Below, piece by piece: positions 3,005-25,396 of a DNA stretch of 25,396 nt. Both the position numbers and the translations under genes were made by a program. This stretch comes from a virus. Position 1 is the stretch's first letter, and each line of letters starts with the position of its first letter. The stretch spans positions 1 through 25,396 of IMG/VR virus record IMGVR_UViG_3300046000_008493, one strand, 5' to 3'. The notes beneath the pieces were generated by a model. The model was not told the origin of the DNA. It ran no database searches and worked only from the letters and a program-made list of their open reading frames with translations.

Positions 3005-3634
3005 TTATTTTAAACAGCAAATACCTGTTTGAGAACAGATAATTTCTGATATTATGTTATTTACTTTAAAATATTTGTTTGATTTAACTGTATTAGGATT
3101 AAAATTTTCATTTAATCCGACTGGTCTCATATAAGCACCTTGTGTTGAAGGTGTACTTACAAAATCCCAACATAACAATTCAAAATCATCTTGTACTTCG
3201 ACTGTATTTTCACCTAATGGCTGTACTGAACCCATACCGCGAGATGAAATACCAACCGTTATATTGTTTATAAATAGTTCTTTTAATATATTACCACTTG
3301 GTGTAGGCAATACTTCAATTTGTCCCATTAAATCATCACCATCCCACCATAAACGTTTAATATTATGGCATACATTTTTAAGGTTAATAATAGATGAGTC
3401 TGGATGGTCTAATTCACCTAAAGCTCTATTTTCAGCTATTGGTCCAGCTACATATTTTTCGACTTCACGTTCTAGTGTATCTTTACGGTATATTCTTCCG
3501 TTTTGATTTTTTGCTTCAGCCCTCTGTACAACACCTTCAACAATTAAGTTTTTAGATGGAGATAGTTTAACCTCATTTAATGAACGAGGAGAAGGAGTGA
3601 ATGAAAAATACTCTATTAATACTTGTTTACTCAT
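3005..3634 (-). CDS. 21: T4-like prohead protease gp21
   Basis: Serine protease of the herpesvirus-assemblin/T4 gp21 type that cleaves scaffold and head proteins after Glu in (L/I)-x-E sites during prohead maturation. It has 209 residues, against 212 for T4 gp21. The family signature appears in order: an N-terminal strand with AKNQNGRIY (42-49), catalytic His77 in GELDHPDSS, catalytic Ser in VGISSRGMGS (S130 or S131, near T4 S140), and an Asp157 region ELLCWDFVSTPS. The C-terminus is Cys-rich (SQTGICCLK). A possible self-processing site is SLNE at residues 18-21. The start overlaps the end of the upstream 561-residue gene by 8 bases, suggesting coupled translation. A terminator follows the stop. 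The family call is confident. Confidence 0.93.
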   Translation of the reverse strand: MSKQVLIEYFSFTPSPRSLNEVKLSPSKNLIVEGVVQRAEAKNQNGRIYRKDTLEREVEKYVAGPIAENRALGELDHPDSSIINLKNVCHNIKRLWWDGDDLMGQIEVLPTPSGNILKELFINNITVGISSRGMGSVQPLGENTVEVQDDFELLCWDFVSTPSTQGAYMRPVGLNENFNPNTVKSNKYFKVNNIISEIICSQTGICCLK

Positions 3635-5453: not shown

Positions 5454-5966
5454 TTAGATATCGTTTACTATAATTTGATTAATATAATCACGAATATCTT
5501 CAACATCAAATCCTTCAGCATCTAAATCTCCCATTATACCTTCAGCGGCGGCTAATAAACTTAGAATATGGTTTCTATTAACTAAACCATCCATACGTTT
5601 AAATGCTTCACTACTTATTTCTTCTACTTTTTCTTTACCTTCATTCATACTAGGTTTAACCATATCATTTAAATAAACATCATCTATAGAAACAAAAGAA
5701 AATGAACCTGGGGCGTCAGGATACATAAACATATATTCACCTACTTTTCCAGCTGATGATCCACCACTTACTTTTCCTATATATTGATAACCATCATGCC
5801 ATTCATCCATTCCAGCATCATAAATTTGATAGTATTGTTTTTGTTTTAATTGAACTTCTTCTTCTACTTTTGCCTCATCTTTCATCATTGTTTCCTGGTA
5901 TTCACTTTCAGTAATTAATCCAGCTAAGCGTTTTAGTTTTGCTATTTCGTTTATTGGTTTTTTCAT
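5454..5966 (-). CDS. Head-module protein with LAGLITE leader (170 aa)
   Basis: Unknown function. Residues 1-20 form a leader ending RLAGLITE, closely similar to residues 1-20 of the 103-aa protein at 16658-16969, although the rest of the two proteins differs. The leader contains I18-T19-E20, a fit to the gp21 cleavage consensus (L/I)-x-E. After it comes an acidic linker (to about 37), then a compact beta-rich segment (about 40-100, QYYQIYDAGMDEWHDGYQYI) and a C-terminal helical segment with EGIMGDLDAEGFDVEDI. It lies 13 bases after the 277-aa gene and one base before the 42-aa gene. I infer a head-internal protein processed by the protease. Confidence 0.72.
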   Translation of the reverse strand: MKKPINEIAKLKRLAGLITESEYQETMMKDEAKVEEEVQLKQKQYYQIYDAGMDEWHDGYQYIGKVSGGSSAGKVGEYMFMYPDAPGSFSFVSIDDVYLNDMVKPSMNEGKEKVEEISSEAFKRMDGLVNRNHILSLLAAAEGIMGDLDAEGFDVEDIRDYINQIIVNDI

Positions 5967-5979
5967 TTTATTTTAATTT

Positions 5980-6813
5980 TTAATATCCTAATTTTTTAAT
6001 TCTTTCCTTAACAAATATAGCTGCTTGAGCTACTGGGTAGTCAAAGTCTTTAGCTATTCTTTTAAGAAAAGCTAATACTAATTTATCACCTTCTGGATTA
6101 TCAGATTTAAACATACGAACTGATTCTTCACTTAATTCACTTTGTCTACGTCTTGAGTAGTCACTAACTGGTTCTTCATTTGAATTTTCATCTTGATCTA
6201 TTTCGATATAAAATCCTATATCTTCAATTAATTCTTGTAATTCTTTAAGAGCTTGAAGTAATCCTACTTTATCTGTTGTTGAAATATTAGAGTTAGTAGT
6301 AATATTATTATTTAAATTTTTAATAATTACTTCAACTCTATCTACTAACATAAGAGGATCTTGAGCTTGTGCTTCATTTATAGTAGTAGATTCAAATAAT
6401 TTATTAAAAAATGCTTTTAATTTATCATGTAAAGCTGAAGCTTCGTCATCAGATAATTTTTTAGCTGCTTTAGCCATCACTGCTGTGATTTTATCATACA
6501 TGTCCTGTACTTTAGCTTGGTCAGGTTCTTCAGCTAAGAAGTCCATCATTTTTTCAGCTTGAGCATCTCCGATATCTCCACCTATGTCTTCTTTAACTTC
6601 TTCTTTTTCTTCACGTACACCTTGATCAGCGTACATTTTACAATAACTTATACTAACTTCATCACGGTTACCTTCATCATCTACACGATAGCATGTATAT
6701 CCATCATCACTATAAACGTATATTTTTTCAGATTCGTTTAATGTTTTTAATCTAGCATAAGATCCTAACTTATTTTCTGTTAGGAATTTTTTCATATCAA
6801 AATTGTCTGCCAT
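5980..6813 (-). CDS. Head-module protein with KKFLTENKL leader (277 aa)
   Basis: Unknown function. The N-terminus MADNFDMKKFLTENKL is nearly the same as MADFDYKKFLIENKL of the 322-aa protein at 12958-13926, and both carry an (L/I)-x-E site (here L11-T12-E13). Residues 28-60 form a short beta segment (KIYVYSDDGYTCYRVDDEG). The rest is acidic and helical, with NLNNNITTNSNIS marking a linker near 170. The C-terminal 50 residues (SDNPEGDKLVLAFLKRIAKDF) are a positively charged helical domain. Start follows the upstream stop as TAA-A-ATG. Presumed internal or core protein of the head by leader and location. Confidence 0.72.
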   Translation of the reverse strand: MADNFDMKKFLTENKLGSYARLKTLNESEKIYVYSDDGYTCYRVDDEGNRDEVSISYCKMYADQGVREEKEEVKEDIGGDIGDAQAEKMMDFLAEEPDQAKVQDMYDKITAVMAKAAKKLSDDEASALHDKLKAFFNKLFESTTINEAQAQDPLMLVDRVEVIIKNLNNNITTNSNISTTDKVGLLQALKELQELIEDIGFYIEIDQDENSNEEPVSDYSRRRQSELSEESVRMFKSDNPEGDKLVLAFLKRIAKDFDYPVAQAAIFVKERIKKLGY

Positions 6814-12957: not shown

Positions 12958-13926
12958 TTAAATTTCTTCGTCTTCAATATCAATTGGTTCATCATCTATT
13001 CCTAATTTTTTTAATTCCTCTTCATCACTTGTTTTACGTTTTGAACCAATAGCCGGAATTTCTTTTTCACCTAATGCTTTAAGAATTTGTTTCAAAACAC
13101 TCCTGGTGTTAGTAGCTCCAAATTTATACTTATCTAGATCATTTAATACTTTAACATAAGCATTATAATCTTCATCTTTTAATTCTTCTAACTTATCAAC
13201 AAGTTGTTGAATTAAACTTGGTAAAGCTGCTTTAGCTACATTTTTAGAACTTTGTTGAGCTGATTTATAATCTGAACTTGACATACCTCCATCTTCAGCT
13301 TCAGTTACATTTTTACCTGTTTTAATATTTGATATAGAATATTGTTTGATAATTTTATCAATCAAATCACCATTATCAACTAACCACTCTCCAGCTTTTG
13401 AACCTGTAGCTGTTATTCTTGGTTTTTTAAGTTTAGCTATATCTTTTTCAGATGGCTCTTTTTCACTTTCATCTCCTGCTGCTGGTGCTTTTTTAGATTT
13501 TATATTTTTCTTACCAATAAACAAATCTTCAGCATCTTCAGGACTTACAAACATATCACCTTCTTCTGGTTCTTCATCAGCAGCAGTAGCTGTCTTAGCA
13601 GTTGTTGTTTGTAGTAATTGATTTCTAATATCTGGAGTAAAAGACCAGTTAATACCTGGAGCTGATTTTTTCTCAATATCACTCTTTAGTAATTCAACCT
13701 CCATTGGTTCAACACCTTGTTCTTTTGCTTGAGCTATAAAATAATTAATAACTTGTTGTTTCCTATCTACTTTAAATGTATCAGGTTTACTAATTCTATC
13801 TTTTATACCTGGAAATTCAGGATTTAGTTTATATTTTTCTTTGGCTAAACGAGCCATTTCCTTCATAGGAACTCTAATTTTAAGTTTATTTTCAATTAGA
13901 AATTTTTTGTAGTCAAAATCTGCCAT
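12958..13926 (-). CDS. Leader-bearing structural candidate (322 aa), unknown function
   Basis: Begins MADFDYKKFLIENKL, nearly identical to the start of the 277-aa head protein at 5980-6813, with an (L/I)-x-E site L10-I11-E12. No other similarity between the two is obvious. Residues 15-70 are basic and helical. About 110-175 is a low-complexity Ala/Glu/Lys/Pro linker. About 220-300 is helical (LPSLIQQLVDKLEELKDEDY, then VLKQILKALGEKE), and the last 25 residues are highly acidic (DDEPIDIEDEEI). Although it lies outside the main head cluster, the shared leader suggests it too is packaged and processed. ATG is 18 bases after an ATATTTATT element. Confidence 0.72.
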   Translation of the reverse strand: MADFDYKKFLIENKLKIRVPMKEMARLAKEKYKLNPEFPGIKDRISKPDTFKVDRKQQVINYFIAQAKEQGVEPMEVELLKSDIEKKSAPGINWSFTPDIRNQLLQTTTAKTATAADEEPEEGDMFVSPEDAEDLFIGKKNIKSKKAPAAGDESEKEPSEKDIAKLKKPRITATGSKAGEWLVDNGDLIDKIIKQYSISNIKTGKNVTEAEDGGMSSSDYKSAQQSSKNVAKAALPSLIQQLVDKLEELKDEDYNAYVKVLNDLDKYKFGATNTRSVLKQILKALGEKEIPAIGSKRKTSDEEELKKLGIDDEPIDIEDEEI

Positions 13927-13954: not shown

Positions 13955-14476
13955 TTAAATTATATTATCTAATATAGTATTCATACGATCTGCTGTGGAA
14001 CCACTAAGTACTATCATTTTTTTAGGTGGGTAAAGTGTTAATAAGCGCAAAATTTCTTGATTTATATTAGCTCTATATTCAAGATCTGTTTCTCTTACAC
14101 CATTATTTTCCATATTTGTACCTACAGGATCAATATAAAATACAATATCGTATTGTTCTCTTAATAACATAGCTGTGTTTACAAATTGAGATTTTTCATG
14201 CATTGTTATTGATTTAGCTAACATTGTAAATGCAGATACATCCCAAACAGTTCTATCAGCTATAAGATCTTTATGTAATAGCTCACTAGCTCTTTCAGCT
14301 AAAAATACTAATTGACCATTAATTGTTGAATCTGTATTAAGTGGAATACCTAAATCTCTTAAATATTTGCTACGTTCAGTAGCTATTTTATGTTTTTTAA
14401 ACAATTTCAGCTCAGACAACGATTTAACTAATGTTGTCTTGCCTACTGACATTGTTCCGCATAGTCCTATTTTCAT
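13955..14476 (-). CDS. NadR-like P-loop kinase (AAA_28 type)
   Basis: A 173-residue single-domain P-loop protein. It has Walker A G7-TMSVG-K13-T14-T15 right at the N-terminus, an acidic/Arg motif ADRTVWDVSAF (73-83) in the place of the kinase D-R-x-x-x-D region, a beta strand DIVFYID (110-116) before the lid, and a lid with NGVRETDLEYR (125-135) that recalls the nicotinamide riboside kinase domain of NadR and the AAA_28 family. NadR-type kinases convert nicotinamide riboside to NMN with ATP. Related phage proteins are also annotated simply as ATPases or nucleotide kinases, so the substrate is not certain. It sits two genes after a FAD flavoprotein, suggesting a small cofactor or redox group. 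ATG is 21 bases after an ATATTTATA element. Confidence 0.8.
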   Translation of the reverse strand: MKIGLCGTMSVGKTTLVKSLSELKLFKKHKIATERSKYLRDLGIPLNTDSTINGQLVFLAERASELLHKDLIADRTVWDVSAFTMLAKSITMHEKSQFVNTAMLLREQYDIVFYIDPVGTNMENNGVRETDLEYRANINQEILRLLTLYPPKKMIVLSGSTADRMNTILDNII

Positions 14477-14768: not shown

Positions 14769-16070
14769 TTAATTAAGGTTAAGCAAACTTTCAGCTACAT
14801 AAATACCATGAGCACCTGATACTGTTATACCGCGAGCACTTAAAGCATCACCAACAAAGTGTACATTTGGATACTCATTTAATGATAAGTCTGTATAATT
14901 AACTAACGGTTCAGGAGATAAATATTTTACTTCAGGAATGTACATACCCCAATCATCACCAAATTCAAATACTTTATTCATATCATTGATAAAATCAGTA
15001 ATATATTTAAAATATCCTTGAAATTCTTTATCTACATCTTTTAAACCAATTTCATCAATTTGAGCTGTATTAATAGATGTTCCTTCTGATGTATTTGATG
15101 GTGTTCGAGTATTATTAGGTGAATAATATAATCCTGTGTTATTAGGTCTTATTTGTAGTTTATTTACTAAGTCACGTGACCATTTAAATGGGTCTTCAAT
15201 ACCTTTGATTTCCATTAATATACCAAAGTTGGTCATATTATTTCTAAATTCTTCTCCTTTTTTTGCATGGCCGTTGTATGTAACATCACCATACGTTTCT
15301 TCAACCGCCACATAAGCAGCGTTATTATTAGTGCAAAAGCTACGAAGGGATACGTTATCAAATTTTTGATAGAGTTTAAAGTCATAGCTGATATCTATTA
15401 GTTTTTGAAAGTATTTTTGTGGTGCTTCAAATCGAATACCAATTTGTACTGATTTAGCTTCGTTAGGTAGTTGATAATCATCTGCTAATTTTTGAGCAAA
15501 ATCAATACCTGATTTACCTACTGCGAATATTAGTTCTTCATATTTAAGATAATTATGTCCTATTCCTATTTCATTAGTATTAAAGTTAATAGTATTTACT
15601 TCAGTATTCCAAGCAAACTTAACACCTTTATCTACTAAAAATGAATACCATGATTTAGCAATTTCATGTAAGAAATTACTTCCAATATGCCATACAGGAA
15701 ATAAACGTAATCCAAAATATGGTTTAATGAAGTCAGGTTCAGCAATAGGATCAGACATAAAAATTTCATCTGGTTTAGGATGAAAACGAGTAAAATTATC
15801 TACTACTTGTTTCATTAATTCCATTGCTTTTTCCTCACCACAGTATTTAGATAATTGACCACCAATTGCTGTATGATAAGTTAATTTACCATCAGACCAA
15901 CCACCAGCACCTAACATACCTGTCATTACTTCTTCAGGTAAGCGATTTATTGGGTCATTACCTTTGTCTATGATTGTAATTAAACTACCATCATATCCAT
16001 TGTCTACTAATTTAGTAGCAGCGTTTATACCAGCTACACCTGCTCCTACAATGACTATTCTTTTATCCAT
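14769..16070 (-). CDS. FAD-dependent oxidoreductase, COG2509-like
   Basis: A 433-residue flavoprotein. The N-terminal Rossmann motif is IVIVGAGVAGINAA (G9-x-G11-x-x-G14), with an acidic residue ending strand 2 (IIDKG, about 33-37). LGAGGWSDGKLT (53-64) matches the GGAGTFSDGKL type signature of the uncharacterised FAD-dependent dehydrogenases of COG2509. The C-terminal FAD-binding block NVHFVGDALSARGITVSGAH (402-421) contains the G-D pair that contacts the FAD ribityl chain. The middle (about 190-330) is the likely substrate domain. The substrate of this family is not established. This is a host-type metabolic gene in a phage, with base composition like its neighbours. It overlaps the end of the upstream gene by 16 bases, suggesting coupled translation. 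Confidence 0.88.
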   Translation of the reverse strand: MDKRIVIVGAGVAGINAATKLVDNGYDGSLITIIDKGNDPINRLPEEVMTGMLGAGGWSDGKLTYHTAIGGQLSKYCGEEKAMELMKQVVDNFTRFHPKPDEIFMSDPIAEPDFIKPYFGLRLFPVWHIGSNFLHEIAKSWYSFLVDKGVKFAWNTEVNTINFNTNEIGIGHNYLKYEELIFAVGKSGIDFAQKLADDYQLPNEAKSVQIGIRFEAPQKYFQKLIDISYDFKLYQKFDNVSLRSFCTNNNAAYVAVEETYGDVTYNGHAKKGEEFRNNMTNFGILMEIKGIEDPFKWSRDLVNKLQIRPNNTGLYYSPNNTRTPSNTSEGTSINTAQIDEIGLKDVDKEFQGYFKYITDFINDMNKVFEFGDDWGMYIPEVKYLSPEPLVNYTDLSLNEYPNVHFVGDALSARGITVSGAHGIYVAESLLNLN

Positions 16071-16657: not shown

Positions 16658-16969
16658 TTATTTAATAGCGTTAGCTATATATTCTTCTACTTCTTTAGAT
16701 ACGTTATCATAATCACCTTCAGTATCAAATTTTTCAAGAATAAAGTCAATAAAGTCATTTTCAAAATAATCAACATCTATTAAATCTTCAAAATCACCAT
16801 CTCTTTTAGCGTCCCTTACAGATTTATCTATAAATAATTTTAATTTTGGAGTTAATGATAATCCTTCTTCAACTTCTTCATTTTTCATTAGTGAGTCACG
16901 ATATTCACCTTCAGTGATTAATCCAGCTAAAAGCTGCATTTTTTTAATTTCGTTAATTTGCTTTTTCAT
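16658..16969 (-). CDS. Small protein with LAGLITE leader (103 aa)
   Basis: Residues 1-20 are MKKQINEIKKMQLLAGLITE, a close match to the leader of the 170-aa protein at 5454-5966 and similar to the last residues of the scaffold protein (RRMQQLAGIIK). The leader ends in I18-T19-E20, a gp21-type cleavage site, and is followed by GEYRDSLM and an acidic stretch. The rest (about 35-103) is acidic and helical (KLKLFIDKSVRDAKRDGDFED), with no known domain. Preceded by an ATATTTATA element 16 bases upstream. I infer a small internal head protein. Confidence 0.72.
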   Translation of the reverse strand: MKKQINEIKKMQLLAGLITEGEYRDSLMKNEEVEEGLSLTPKLKLFIDKSVRDAKRDGDFEDLIDVDYFENDFIDFILEKFDTEGDYDNVSKEVEEYIANAIK

Positions 16970-18849: not shown

Positions 18850-19218
18850 TTATTTTGTTTTACCCCAAGTTTTTCCTTTACCTTTTTTCTTACATCCAGC
18901 AGGTGTTGGTCTACATGATGGGTATTTTGATCTTTTTTCGCCTTCTTTTCTTCCACAAGATTTATATCCTCCGTTTCCATCAGGAGCATTACAATCTACC
19001 CAACCAGTTTCTTTACCTTTAGGACCAGAACGTTTAAACCATTTATGTAATGATTCATCTTCTTTTAAATCTTTCCAAATGTCACCTTTACGGCATCTAA
19101 CAATAGCTCCTGATTTATAAGCAGATGGTTTATCATAACGTCTATCAGCTATACGATGGCATCTATCTTTTTTCTTTTCAAGAAGTACCTCAATCAATAT
19201 GTCTATTAGACGAATCAT
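18850..19218 (-). CDS. Cys-rich basic phage protein with leader (122 aa)
   Basis: Begins MIRLIDILIEVLLEKKK, one of three related LIDIL/LINIL leaders in this window, with candidate cleavage sites after E10 and E14. The rest is basic and Cys-rich: C20 (DRCHRIADRRYDKPSAYKSG), C42 (AIVRCRKGDIW), then WFKRSGPKGKETGWVDC76 and the YKSC88GRKEG / YPSC102RPTPAGC109 block. These two blocks occur in many small phage and large-virus proteins I have seen, always without an assigned function. The cysteines may bind zinc. The ending (KKKGKGKTWGKTK) is strongly basic and suited to nucleic-acid contact. It starts on the last base of the upstream stop (TAATG). Confidence 0.77.
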   Translation of the reverse strand: MIRLIDILIEVLLEKKKDRCHRIADRRYDKPSAYKSGAIVRCRKGDIWKDLKEDESLHKWFKRSGPKGKETGWVDCNAPDGNGGYKSCGRKEGEKRSKYPSCRPTPAGCKKKGKGKTWGKTK

Positions 19219-22978: not shown

Positions 22979-23554
22979 TTACAATTGCTGTTCACGTAAC
23001 TTTTTAATATATTCTTTAACGTTTTTTATTTCATCATCATTAATTTTACCTCCACCCCATGATTCAATTACACCCTGCTCATTTATATATGATTCATTTT
23101 TAGTTGATAAAAAATTATTAACAGCTTCTTCAAAATCATTAATCATAGCATCTTTATTAGTATTCATCATTGATTTTTCATACTCATTCCACTTGCCACT
23201 AATTTTAATTTTAGTTTCCATATCTACAACACAATCAAAACACATTTTATGTATAGTCCACATTTTCTTATTATACTCATTTATTTTCATTGGATTGTTA
23301 CAATGAGGACAAGAGATAGGCATAACAAATAGACGTTTTAAAGTGTCATATTTTGTGACTGTTTGTTTAATACCATTTTTAATAGTCCAAACTTTACCTG
23401 TATCTTCCCAAATGTCACCTTCTTGATAATCAATATGTTGTTTTGTATAACCTATTTGAGTACCTACAGAACCGCCAGAATTACCTGTAATAATATTTCT
23501 CATTCTCTGTACATCACGTTTAGAGAATTCTTTCTTTAATTGATTTTCATTCAT
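22979..23554 (-). CDS. Zinc-ribbon phage protein of unknown function (191 aa)
   Basis: Begins MNENQLKKEFSKRDVQRMRN, a basic helix, then a beta segment with YQEGDIWEDTGKVWTIKNGI (43-62). A four-Cys metal site C82-PH-C85 and C105-FD-C108 flanks MKINEYNKKMWTIHK, fitting a zinc ribbon. The rest is helical and charged. Zinc ribbons of this kind bind nucleic acid or protein; I do not recognise a specific family. The start overlaps the end of the multidomain gene by 4 bases (ATGA), so the two are probably translated together. Confidence 0.75.
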   Translation of the reverse strand: MNENQLKKEFSKRDVQRMRNIITGNSGGSVGTQIGYTKQHIDYQEGDIWEDTGKVWTIKNGIKQTVTKYDTLKRLFVMPISCPHCNNPMKINEYNKKMWTIHKMCFDCVVDMETKIKISGKWNEYEKSMMNTNKDAMINDFEEAVNNFLSTKNESYINEQGVIESWGGGKINDDEIKNVKEYIKKLREQQL

Positions 23555-25396
23555 AAACCTAAATCTTGTAACTGTTTTATTGTGTCAGCAGTTGATGTAT
23601 GATGTATTCCTACACCACCAGCATCTTTCCATCTTTGAATATTATCTGCTCTATCGTCTATTAATATAGCATTTGGTTTTGCAAATTGTTGTTTTTGTTC
23701 AGCTGCTCTTAATATAAGTTTAGTACCAGGCATATTTCTTTTTACCCAAACAAATTTACCTATTTTAGATGACTCATCTCTTGATGGTGCTGATAGTAAT
23801 TCAGGATTGTATTTGTCTATATAATTCCATAATTGTTTTCCATCAGGCATCCATTTTAATTTAATCCAAAATGCAGCACCTGCTTTTTGAATAGGTTCCC
23901 AAAATTGTTTAGGATCAGTACTAAAACTAGCTTCTGTACCAGTTAGATCTTTATATCCTTTATCAAAATCAACTAATACACCATCCATATCACAGTATAT
24001 CTTATATTCTTTATTTTCAGTTTTAACTGCTTCAAATATCTCAGGTTTATATTGACCAAATTGTCTTAATAAAACACCAGCGGCGGCATTAGCTTCATTC
24101 TCAATTGGTGAACCTGTTGCCCCATCATCTTGTGTTAATGGTTTTAATTCAGCTTGTTTACGATGTACTAATTCATGAGCTAATGTGCGTAAAATATCAG
24201 CTGTCATTCTTGATCCTCTAACAACTAATAATTTACCTGTGTCTGGTCTGTAAGAACCTAATGAATGCATTTGTTTAGCTACATCTTCATCATCTGTAAA
24301 TTCAATTTCAGGTATATCTTGTAATTCAAGTGCTTTAGTGGCAAAATCTATAAAATCACTTACTATATCTGTTTCATTTTCTTCTAGTCCTGCTTTATTT
24401 AATTTAGAGTAATATTTTGGATCTTCACCTAAATGAGCTAAAGCTATTTTTTTAGCTATTTTTTCATCAGTAGTGTGTTCTTTTTCTGTTTTAATTCCTT
24501 TCTTTAATTCTTCAGGATCAACATCTTTTTCATCTACTGTAGGAACATCAAGTTGAAGTTCAGTTAATGATTTTTGCCACCATTTAATAGTGAATAAATC
24601 TTCTTCAACATTAATCGGTATATTATGTTTAGATAAATATTTAAGTACTTGCTCACGCTGTGTCGGACTATCTCCTAAATTAGGAATCAACATACGTCTT
24701 TCTTGTCCGTCAAATGCATGTTGAGAATATTCAAATGGTATTAATAATGTATTAAGAAAGTTTTCTATTTTTGGAGTTAATTTATAAGGTACTCTTATAA
24801 TTAATTGACCATCTTGTTGATTTTCTTGTAATTGGTCAATACTTAATACTGGTATTCCTAATATATTGAGTATATCATCAAAATCACCTTTCTGAATTAC
24901 TACATCAGGAAAACATCCTTTAAGTAATTCAATATTGTTTAAATATTCATTTTTAGCTTTTGAATACTCAGTTGATTCTTTATCTGGAGTTGATCTTATT
25001 TGTAGTACTGATTGTTTTATTTTATCTATTACTTCACGAACTTGAGTTCCTGATAGTCTTTTATTTTGTGATACTACTTTTTCATTAACAGATATAGGCA
25101 TTACTCTTGTACCAAATGCTTTTTGTAATGAAACAAAGTATTGTTGATCTTCAACTTCTTCTTTAGCGCCAGCTACATACGCTATTAGTTCTAAGTCATT
25201 ATCCATTCTAGAAAAAATATCTTTAATTGGAGAAGCATTTTTAGATACTTCAACAGAAACTTTAGCCATAGGTGAAGCTGCTAAATATAAGTCCCAAATA
25301 CGTTTACTCATACTTGCTGTTATACCATCACGTTCTTTTTGTCCAATTAAAACTATTACTTTAGTAACATATGATCTTGAAGCTAAATCTTTCATT
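23551..25396 (-). CDS. Nucleotidyltransferase-like / metallopeptidase / HAD phosphatase fusion (5' end cut)
   Basis: The visible 614 residues contain several domains. The first ATG (25395) lies at the very edge and is probably internal, because the nucleotidyltransferase region lacks its N-terminal phosphate-binding H-x-G-H part. Residues 1-125 match the second half of that fold: VIVLIGQKERDGITASMSKR, LELIAYVAG and LSGTQVRE (113-120), the iSxTxxR-type ending. About 150-290 is an alpha/beta linker domain, unrecognised. About 345-455 is a zinc metallopeptidase: H407-ELV-H411 in LAHELVHRKQ, with downstream Glu candidates in PIENEANAAAG. About 463-614 is a HAD phosphatase: motif I D469-M-D471-GVLVDF, motif II LSAPS, motif IV LID580-D581RADN, like 5'-nucleotidase (NT5C-type) proteins. 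Uncommon domain combination; the role is unknown. Confidence 0.85.
   Translation of the reverse strand, partial: MKDLASRSYVTKVIVLIGQKERDGITASMSKRIWDLYLAASPMAKVSVEVSKNASPIKDIFSRMDNDLELIAYVAGAKEEVEDQQYFVSLQKAFGTRVMPISVNEKVVSQNKRLSGTQVREVIDKIKQSVLQIRSTPDKESTEYSKAKNEYLNNIELLKGCFPDVVIQKGDFDDILNILGIPVLSIDQLQENQQDGQLIIRVPYKLTPKIENFLNTLLIPFEYSQHAFDGQERRMLIPNLGDSPTQREQVLKYLSKHNIPINVEEDLFTIKWWQKSLTELQLDVPTVDEKDVDPEELKKGIKTEKEHTTDEKIAKKIALAHLGEDPKYYSKLNKAGLEENETDIVSDFIDFATKALELQDIPEIEFTDDEDVAKQMHSLGSYRPDTGKLLVVRGSRMTADILRTLAHELVHRKQAELKPLTQDDGATGSPIENEANAAAGVLLRQFGQYKPEIFEAVKTENKEYKIYCDMDGVLVDFDKGYKDLTGTEASFSTDPKQFWEPIQKAGAAFWIKLKWMPDGKQLWNYIDKYNPELLSAPSRDESSKIGKFVWVKRNMPGTKLILRAAEQKQQFAKPNAILIDDRADNIQRWKDAGGVGIHHTSTADTIKQLQDLGL

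Follow-up and report, generated by a model that had tools for sequence, protein, structure and literature searches.

What might a single protein that joins a nucleotidyltransferase (NTase), a peptidase and a phosphatase be doing among the head genes of a T4-like phage? The question is raised by a 25.4-kb IMG/VR virus fragment (25,396 nucleotides, analysed at full length and referred to here as the window), the minus strand of which carries a T4-like head cluster with genes for terminase, portal, a gp21-like prohead protease, scaffold and major capsid protein. The TerL, portal and capsid proteins are approximately 57–60% identical to those of Flavobacterium phage immuto. The ORF of interest, at 23551–25395 on the minus strand (as are all features of the window given below), encodes 614 amino acids and runs open to the end of the contig, its 5' end cut. 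The gene that follows it (22979–23554) is conserved and syntenic in loci L002, L010 and L021 and in immuto (gp086); two genes downstream of the target, 22397–22948 matches phrog_858 (starvation-inducible transcriptional regulator, 7.9e-24).

Two full-length siblings, L002 (683 aa) and L025 (661 aa), are 83–86% identical to the target. The ATG at 25395 is ruled out as the true start because both siblings carry a further 40 residues upstream, which we read as the approximately 40 residues missing here (MIDLNTILSELNEEGESSTPPAICFYPGGFKPPHEGHYEA); these comprise a short tag (MIDLNTILSELNE) and then GGFKPPHEGH, the HxGH half of the NTase. A first-pass annotation, made from the letters of the window, had predicted that this half would lie upstream of the contig end, and the siblings bear that out. 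We take the target to be the C-terminal 614 residues of a multi-enzyme protein of roughly 655 residues.

From N- to C-terminus the protein comprises the tag, a HIGH nucleotidyltransferase, a region without an assigned fold, DUF5661, a zincin (HExxH...E) and an NT5C-like HAD nucleotidase. In the window, the C-terminal part of the HIGH-superfamily NTase occupies 25006–25395, with LSGTQVRE at 25033–25056 and the HxGH half beyond the contig; the zincin-like metallopeptidase domain lies at 24046–24363, with HELVH at 24163–24177 and a candidate third ligand, ENEA, at 24091–24102; and the NT5C-like HAD phosphatase, of the 5'(3')-deoxyribonucleotidase family, lies at 23554–24012, with DMDGVLVDF at 23965–23991 and LIDDRADN at 23641–23664. 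The signatures that the first-pass annotation had placed on one chain (LSGTQVRE, LAHELVHRKQ with its HExxH at residues 407–411, DMDGVLVDF and LIDDRADN) are thus all present; what had been missed is DUF5661 at 24394–24537 (residues 287–334; Pfam score 46.1 bits against a cut-off of 27), which phage immuto also encodes, in another head-cluster protein with a tag of its own.

Chance occurrence of the motifs is excluded by the conservation of the catalytic residues across distant relatives, scored over 43–74 sequences depending on the domain. Within SGTxxR of the NTase, S and T are each kept in 72 of 74 relatives and R in all 74; the H, E and H of the zincin, together with both E of ExE, are kept in 54 of 54, and the D, D, K and DD of the HAD in 42/42 to 43/43. 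Compared with the PDB, the NTase profile has as its top match the archaeal NMNAT 1f9a (E 5.8e-4, SGTxxR included), an entry titled MJ0541; the HAD profile best matches mitochondrial 5'(3')-deoxyribonucleotidase (3.9e-7), and the zincin profile finds no sequence match there. In Pfam the zincin matches DUF6782, M91 and MPTase-PolyVal weakly, the last (PF18818) in 5 of 27 members, and against curated NMNAT and PPAT family models the NTase falls below every cut-off.

An AlphaFold model of the L002 protein, built with 33 sequences, is confident for the NTase (residues ~22–170), zincin (~412–517) and HAD (~530–683), with the tag (1–18) and linkers poorly modelled; mean pLDDT is 71, and with a pTM of 0.38 the packing of the domains is not fixed by this model. 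Foldseek places the NTase model beside PPAT and NaMN adenylyltransferase folds; the matches among viral models include deoxyribonucleotidases and, for the zincin, IrrE-like peptidases (38% identity over 108 columns, TMt 0.80). In the predicted model HExxH falls inside a helix-sheet-helix-helix zincin-like domain, and model and alignment together give the zincin fold its HExxH helix and, further along the chain, its Glu helix, in keeping with the peptidase first proposed. The HAD combines DxDGxxxDF, Ser/Thr, Lys and DD motifs with its profile match to NT5C, and the NTase has the HIGH fold of NMN/NaMN adenylyltransferases with (H/T)xGH and SxTxxR.

A profile scan of IMG/VR returned at least 566 confirmed relatives. 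GTDB genomes yielded three family loci only, two of them within one metagenome-assembled genome, which argues that the family is essentially viral; these three provided no usable link to a host. A tBLASTn search of cultured phages with the target gave no match of 80% coverage, only pieces (HAD, zincin or DUF5661). The HAD is fused in approximately 45 parsed loci and separate in 13 complete ones, where it is usually the next gene, and a second zincin copy is common among the parsed loci. Directly upstream of the NTase gene in nearly all loci is a gene for a zeta-like P-loop kinase; at L023 kinase and NTase are joined in one protein, which argues that the two cooperate. Domain content varies in other ways. 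The protein at L057:8001–10895 has a weak match to Tox-ART-HYD1, an ADP-ribosyltransferase family (E 1.4e-4), between NTase and zincin; immuto gp088 (L029:7131–9854) begins with an additional stretch resembling Pol-beta-type nucleotidyltransferases, and its preceding neighbour (L029:6221–7129) is also Pol-beta-like, in both cases on motifs recognised by eye; and at L020:564–2405, ahead of a terminase gene, a CCA-type tRNA nucleotidyltransferase shares one chain with this same HAD nucleotidase.

The first-pass annotation had suggested nucleotide or cofactor chemistry, which fits both the NTase and the HAD fold. From fold we infer that the NTase would adenylylate NMN/NaMN or a comparable phosphate supplied by the kinase, with a nucleotidase activity alongside; NMN is the most likely substrate of the NTase. 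Inside the cell, the HIGH NTase (most like an NMN/NaMN adenylyltransferase) would be aided by the zeta-like kinase encoded upstream, and at an early stage of infection NTase, kinase and NT5C-like nucleotidase would work on nucleotides or on the NAD pool, one possible use being against an NAD-depleting defence. Phage NAD synthesis that counters such defences is an established theme (PMC9503650), and a role in NAD metabolism has been suggested for the virion NMNAT of S-SCSM1 (PMC9602691). As a candidate for the NTase, Namat of NARP1 was set aside because it resembles Nampt and is no HIGH enzyme (PMC12774641).

The same enzymes could be assembled differently. A kinase and a HAD phosphatase, as in T4 PseT, together with nucleotidyltransferases might constitute a module for the repair or healing of RNA ends instead of one for NAD metabolism; polynucleotide-kinase families (phrog_505) are among the kinase's matches, the CCA-type fusion at L020 and the Pol-beta-like motif of immuto gp088 point the same way, and L074 has a weak NTP_transf_2 match. 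However, the HAD groups with NT5C deoxyribonucleotidases and not with PNKP phosphatases, and HIGH NTases of this type use small molecules as substrates; we regard RNA-end repair as quite improbable. Equally doubtful, in our judgement, is that the NTase makes nucleotide sugars. This cytidylyltransferase reading was proposed for the HIGH NTases of cyanophages (PMC7824862), and 'cyti(ti)dyltransferase' is the annotation in many phages, but both the profile and the SGTxxR motif are nearer to NMNAT, and the synthesis of sugar nucleotides presents no obvious need for injection from the virion.

Some other genes of these head clusters deserve mention in their own right. A putative FAD/NAD-binding oxidoreductase (MDKRIVIVGAGVAGINAATKLV) is encoded inside the head cluster of the window at 14769–16070, with counterparts in the clusters of contigs G001, G002 and G004. 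An AAA_28 (NadR-kinase-like) gene is kept in the head cluster at 13955–14476 of the window and at G004:41493–42450; in G004 its neighbour encodes a small HIGH NTase (GYFNPLHKGH) as a protein of its own, an arrangement resembling a split NadR. On the G003 contig, the terminase large subunit gene (L214:195–2957, minus strand) is a 920-aa open frame with an in-frame intein-like insert (CFSKDTIIYTKFGPQYI...THTYVTEYGIVHN, followed by C).

How might such an enzyme enter the head? Internal proteins of T4 carry a 10-residue capsid-targeting sequence in which residues 4 and 7 serve targeting and residues 8 and 10 processing, and gp21 cleaves after L/I-x-E (PMC9026906). T4 IpII and IpIII start MKTYQEFIAE, followed by A, and the ten-residue signal of IpIII is annotated in record X04567. 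HIGH NTases have been detected by mass spectrometry in purified virions of S-SM1 (PMC3037559), S-SCSM1 (PMC9602691, where S-CBWM1 is also cited) and S-CREM2 (PMC10665884). These three proteins start MKKFSAFLNE, MKSFLQFLKE and MKNFSSFLTE, respectively, each followed by A, the common pattern being MKxFxxFLxE and then A. Among cyanophage-type NTases in IMG/VR, 69 of 78 carry the strict tag MKx[FY]xxF[LI]xE, compared to 4 of 514 other ORFs; the remaining nine have essentially the same tag shifted by one residue (e.g., MKFKQFLSEA). T4 residues 4, 7, 8 and 10 are retained in the cyanophage tag. We found no earlier report of a T4-type tag on these NTases in the open-access literature. Our tag rule A misses IpI, one of the T4 positive controls, and is therefore incomplete. 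Other small ORFs with strict T4-type starts (e.g., MKTFLEFISEAEVAW, MKTYSQFIVE) also lie near cyanophage-type NTases at L138, L148, L166 and L208 and are candidate head cargo.

The strict pattern is absent from the window family. Its NTases instead bear a diverged, E-ending N-extension in 64 of 71 cases (the other seven start directly at the enzyme core), and in every one of the 64 extensions an [LIVMF]xE motif places its E at residues 11–15, against a shuffle mean of 40. The window's own N-terminus lies beyond the contig; in siblings L002 and L025 the tag ends LNE, a T4-type L/I-x-E ending. Diverged tags of this phage group include MIDLNTILSELNE, MISLVQLLKE and MDNFDLKKYLAE. Kinase orthologues have tags of the MISLVQLLKE type or the MDNFNLKKYLTE type; in the window's clade the kinase has no tag. 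Where the HAD is a separate gene next to the NTase module, it has an N-extension of approximately 10–40 residues, and the immuto NTase protein has no clear tag at its N-terminus.

To quantify such starts we used a rule (hydrophobic-xx-hydrophobic-hydrophobic-x-E within residues 2–24) that was shaped on immuto before the hold-out tests. In immuto, 13 of 32 head-cluster genes have tag-like starts, compared to 15 of 185 others (P=1.2e-5; 0 of 2000 shuffles). On three hold-out contigs the corresponding figures are 9/35 and 6/100, 8/30 and 4/95, and 7/25 and 1/38 (P=0.003, 0.001 and 0.005; combined P = 3.4e-6), comparisons which are not phylogenetically independent, the hold-out genes being related. 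In the window itself, tag-like starts are found by the rule at 18850–19218 (MIRLIDILIE, followed by V) and 16658–16969 (..LAGLITE, followed by G); three further ORFs with tag-like starts, at 12958–13926 (MADFDYKKFLIE, followed by N), 5980–6813 (MADNFDMKKFLTE, followed by N) and 5454–5966 (..LAGLITE, followed by S), have sibling genes in the hold-out test. On contig G001 (that of L010), six neighbouring ORFs at ~61961–64980 have different bodies and start MDNF[DN]L[KR]KYLAEG; they look like a cassette of tagged head cargo. Tags on NTases, kinases, HADs and the G001 ORFs, together with the enrichment in head clusters, point to a movable head-targeting signal.

If the N-extension were instead a structural or oligomerisation helix, the protein could be an ordinary intracellular fusion for nucleotide metabolism, an auxiliary metabolic enzyme that is never packaged. 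The 7 of 71 family NTases that have no extension fit this, as do the stand-alone NT5C-like HADs of other phages, most of which start at the core and resemble ordinary metabolic genes. The location of the target gene in a head cluster speaks against it, however, as do the over-representation of such tags among neighbours of unrelated sequence, the six G001 ORFs with their shared start, and the detection of tagged homologous NTases in virions; we consider it unlikely. The first-pass annotation had also entertained a multi-function virion protein, and a virion role is now well supported by the tags and by the virion proteomics of related NTases; the papers found contain no proteomics for the window's own phage group. 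Extending the published data of others on HIGH NTases in cyanophage virions and on targeting by the T4 tag, we infer that a short tag, later removed, probably brings the target itself into the head, from which it would enter the host together with the DNA.

The multi-enzyme protein would be made late and directed by its N-terminal capsid-targeting tag to the prohead core, where a T4 gp21-like prohead protease would trim the tag after L-x-E; the trimmed protein would then be packaged with DNA and injected into the host. The window encodes such a protease at 3005–3634 (phrog_207, 2.9e-52), presumably that which recognises L/I-x-E tags. The zincin most likely cuts its own chain or host proteins. 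A division of the polyprotein into its component enzymes by the zincin it contains, as the first-pass annotation envisaged and as has been proposed for P1 DdrB and other polyvalent proteins (PMC5512222), accords with the full catalytic set in 54 of 54 relatives and with the frequent second zincin copy. However, candidate prohead-protease sites ([LIVMF]xE) precede the HAD in 44 of 44 fusions, against 33 expected by shuffling, so that any processing may be the work of the prohead protease instead, which would render self-cleavage needless; these inter-domain sites remain a suggestion because stricter motifs are barely or not above shuffles. Moreover, in some relatives the HAD is already a separate gene beside an NTase–zincin chain. 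Self-cleavage seems on balance somewhat improbable.

Our reading is that of a late-made, tagged multi-enzyme protein that would be trimmed in the prohead, packaged and injected, with nucleotides or the NAD pool as its early targets in the infected cell. We consider this reading, as a whole, probable. It builds on what is observed here: the domain content, the conservation of catalytic residues, the synteny, and the tags with their enrichment in the head cluster. More speculative, and in our judgement rather unlikely, is that the tagged kinase and the tagged NMNAT–zincin–nucleotidase polyprotein of this widespread T4-like lineage form an injected cofactor-repair kit: equipped with T4-type tags and trimmed by the prohead protease, it might rebuild or redirect the NAD and nucleotide pools in the opening minutes of infection, prior to phage gene expression, and so counter NAD-depleting immunity.

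Reports of virion NMNAT-like enzymes in cyanophages left their route into the head unexplained; a T4-type tag, carried by 78 of 78 such NTases, offers an explanation. By the same logic, hundreds of unannotated head-cluster proteins of aquatic T4-like phages become predicted injected effectors, readable from their first 15–20 residues. The fused zincin and nucleotidase provide a good system for studying the processing of injected multi-enzyme proteins and ready-made NAD-repair enzymes in phages.

Polyvalent injected proteins, T4-type tags with internal head proteins, and virion NMNATs are each known kinds, and phage particles have already yielded related enzymes. Little notice has been taken of the tag and of the form with three enzymes, and the combination of these known kinds, the wide family and the explanation by tags are, as far as we have checked, new. 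With polyvalent proteins (Iyer et al. 2017, PMC5512222) the family shares at least two biochemically unrelated domains, including a zincin, on one chain of a phage with portal and terminase, predicted injection, and variable insertions (here the weak ART-like match at L057). It differs in apparently entering the head by a T4-type N-terminal tag and in a zincin that matches PF18818 weakly; no HIGH-NTase terms were found in the text of that study. T4 IpI–III and Alt resemble the family in their short N-terminal tag, its hydrophobic positions and L/I-x-E end, and in the gp21-like protease, and on the cyanophage NTases the residue pattern of T4 is matched exactly; here, however, the cargo is a multi-domain enzyme, and the tags of the window group have diverged. 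The cyanophage virion NMNATs or cytidylyltransferases (S-SM1 GC190, S-SCSM1 ORF91, S-CREM2 ORF154) are likewise HIGH NTases of T4-like phages, located in the virion, with an NPPxxGH-type HIGH motif and an S-x-(S/T)-x-x-R-type motif, and the related pelagiphage HTVC008M also has a zeta-like kinase next to its NTase; in contrast to the target they have neither zincin nor fused HAD, and a longer linker precedes the NTase. NadR (NMN adenylyltransferase and ribosylnicotinamide kinase) similarly couples a HIGH adenylyltransferase to a P-loop kinase, but the kinase of the target family is zeta-toxin/AAA_33-like and its NTase scores below curated NMNAT cut-offs. Finally, the NT5C 5'(3')-deoxyribonucleotidases (mdN, cdN; phrog_2643) share all HAD catalytic motifs and give the best profile match, whereas the HAD of this family is fused C-terminally to NTase and zincin or, when separate beside the NTase, is tagged.
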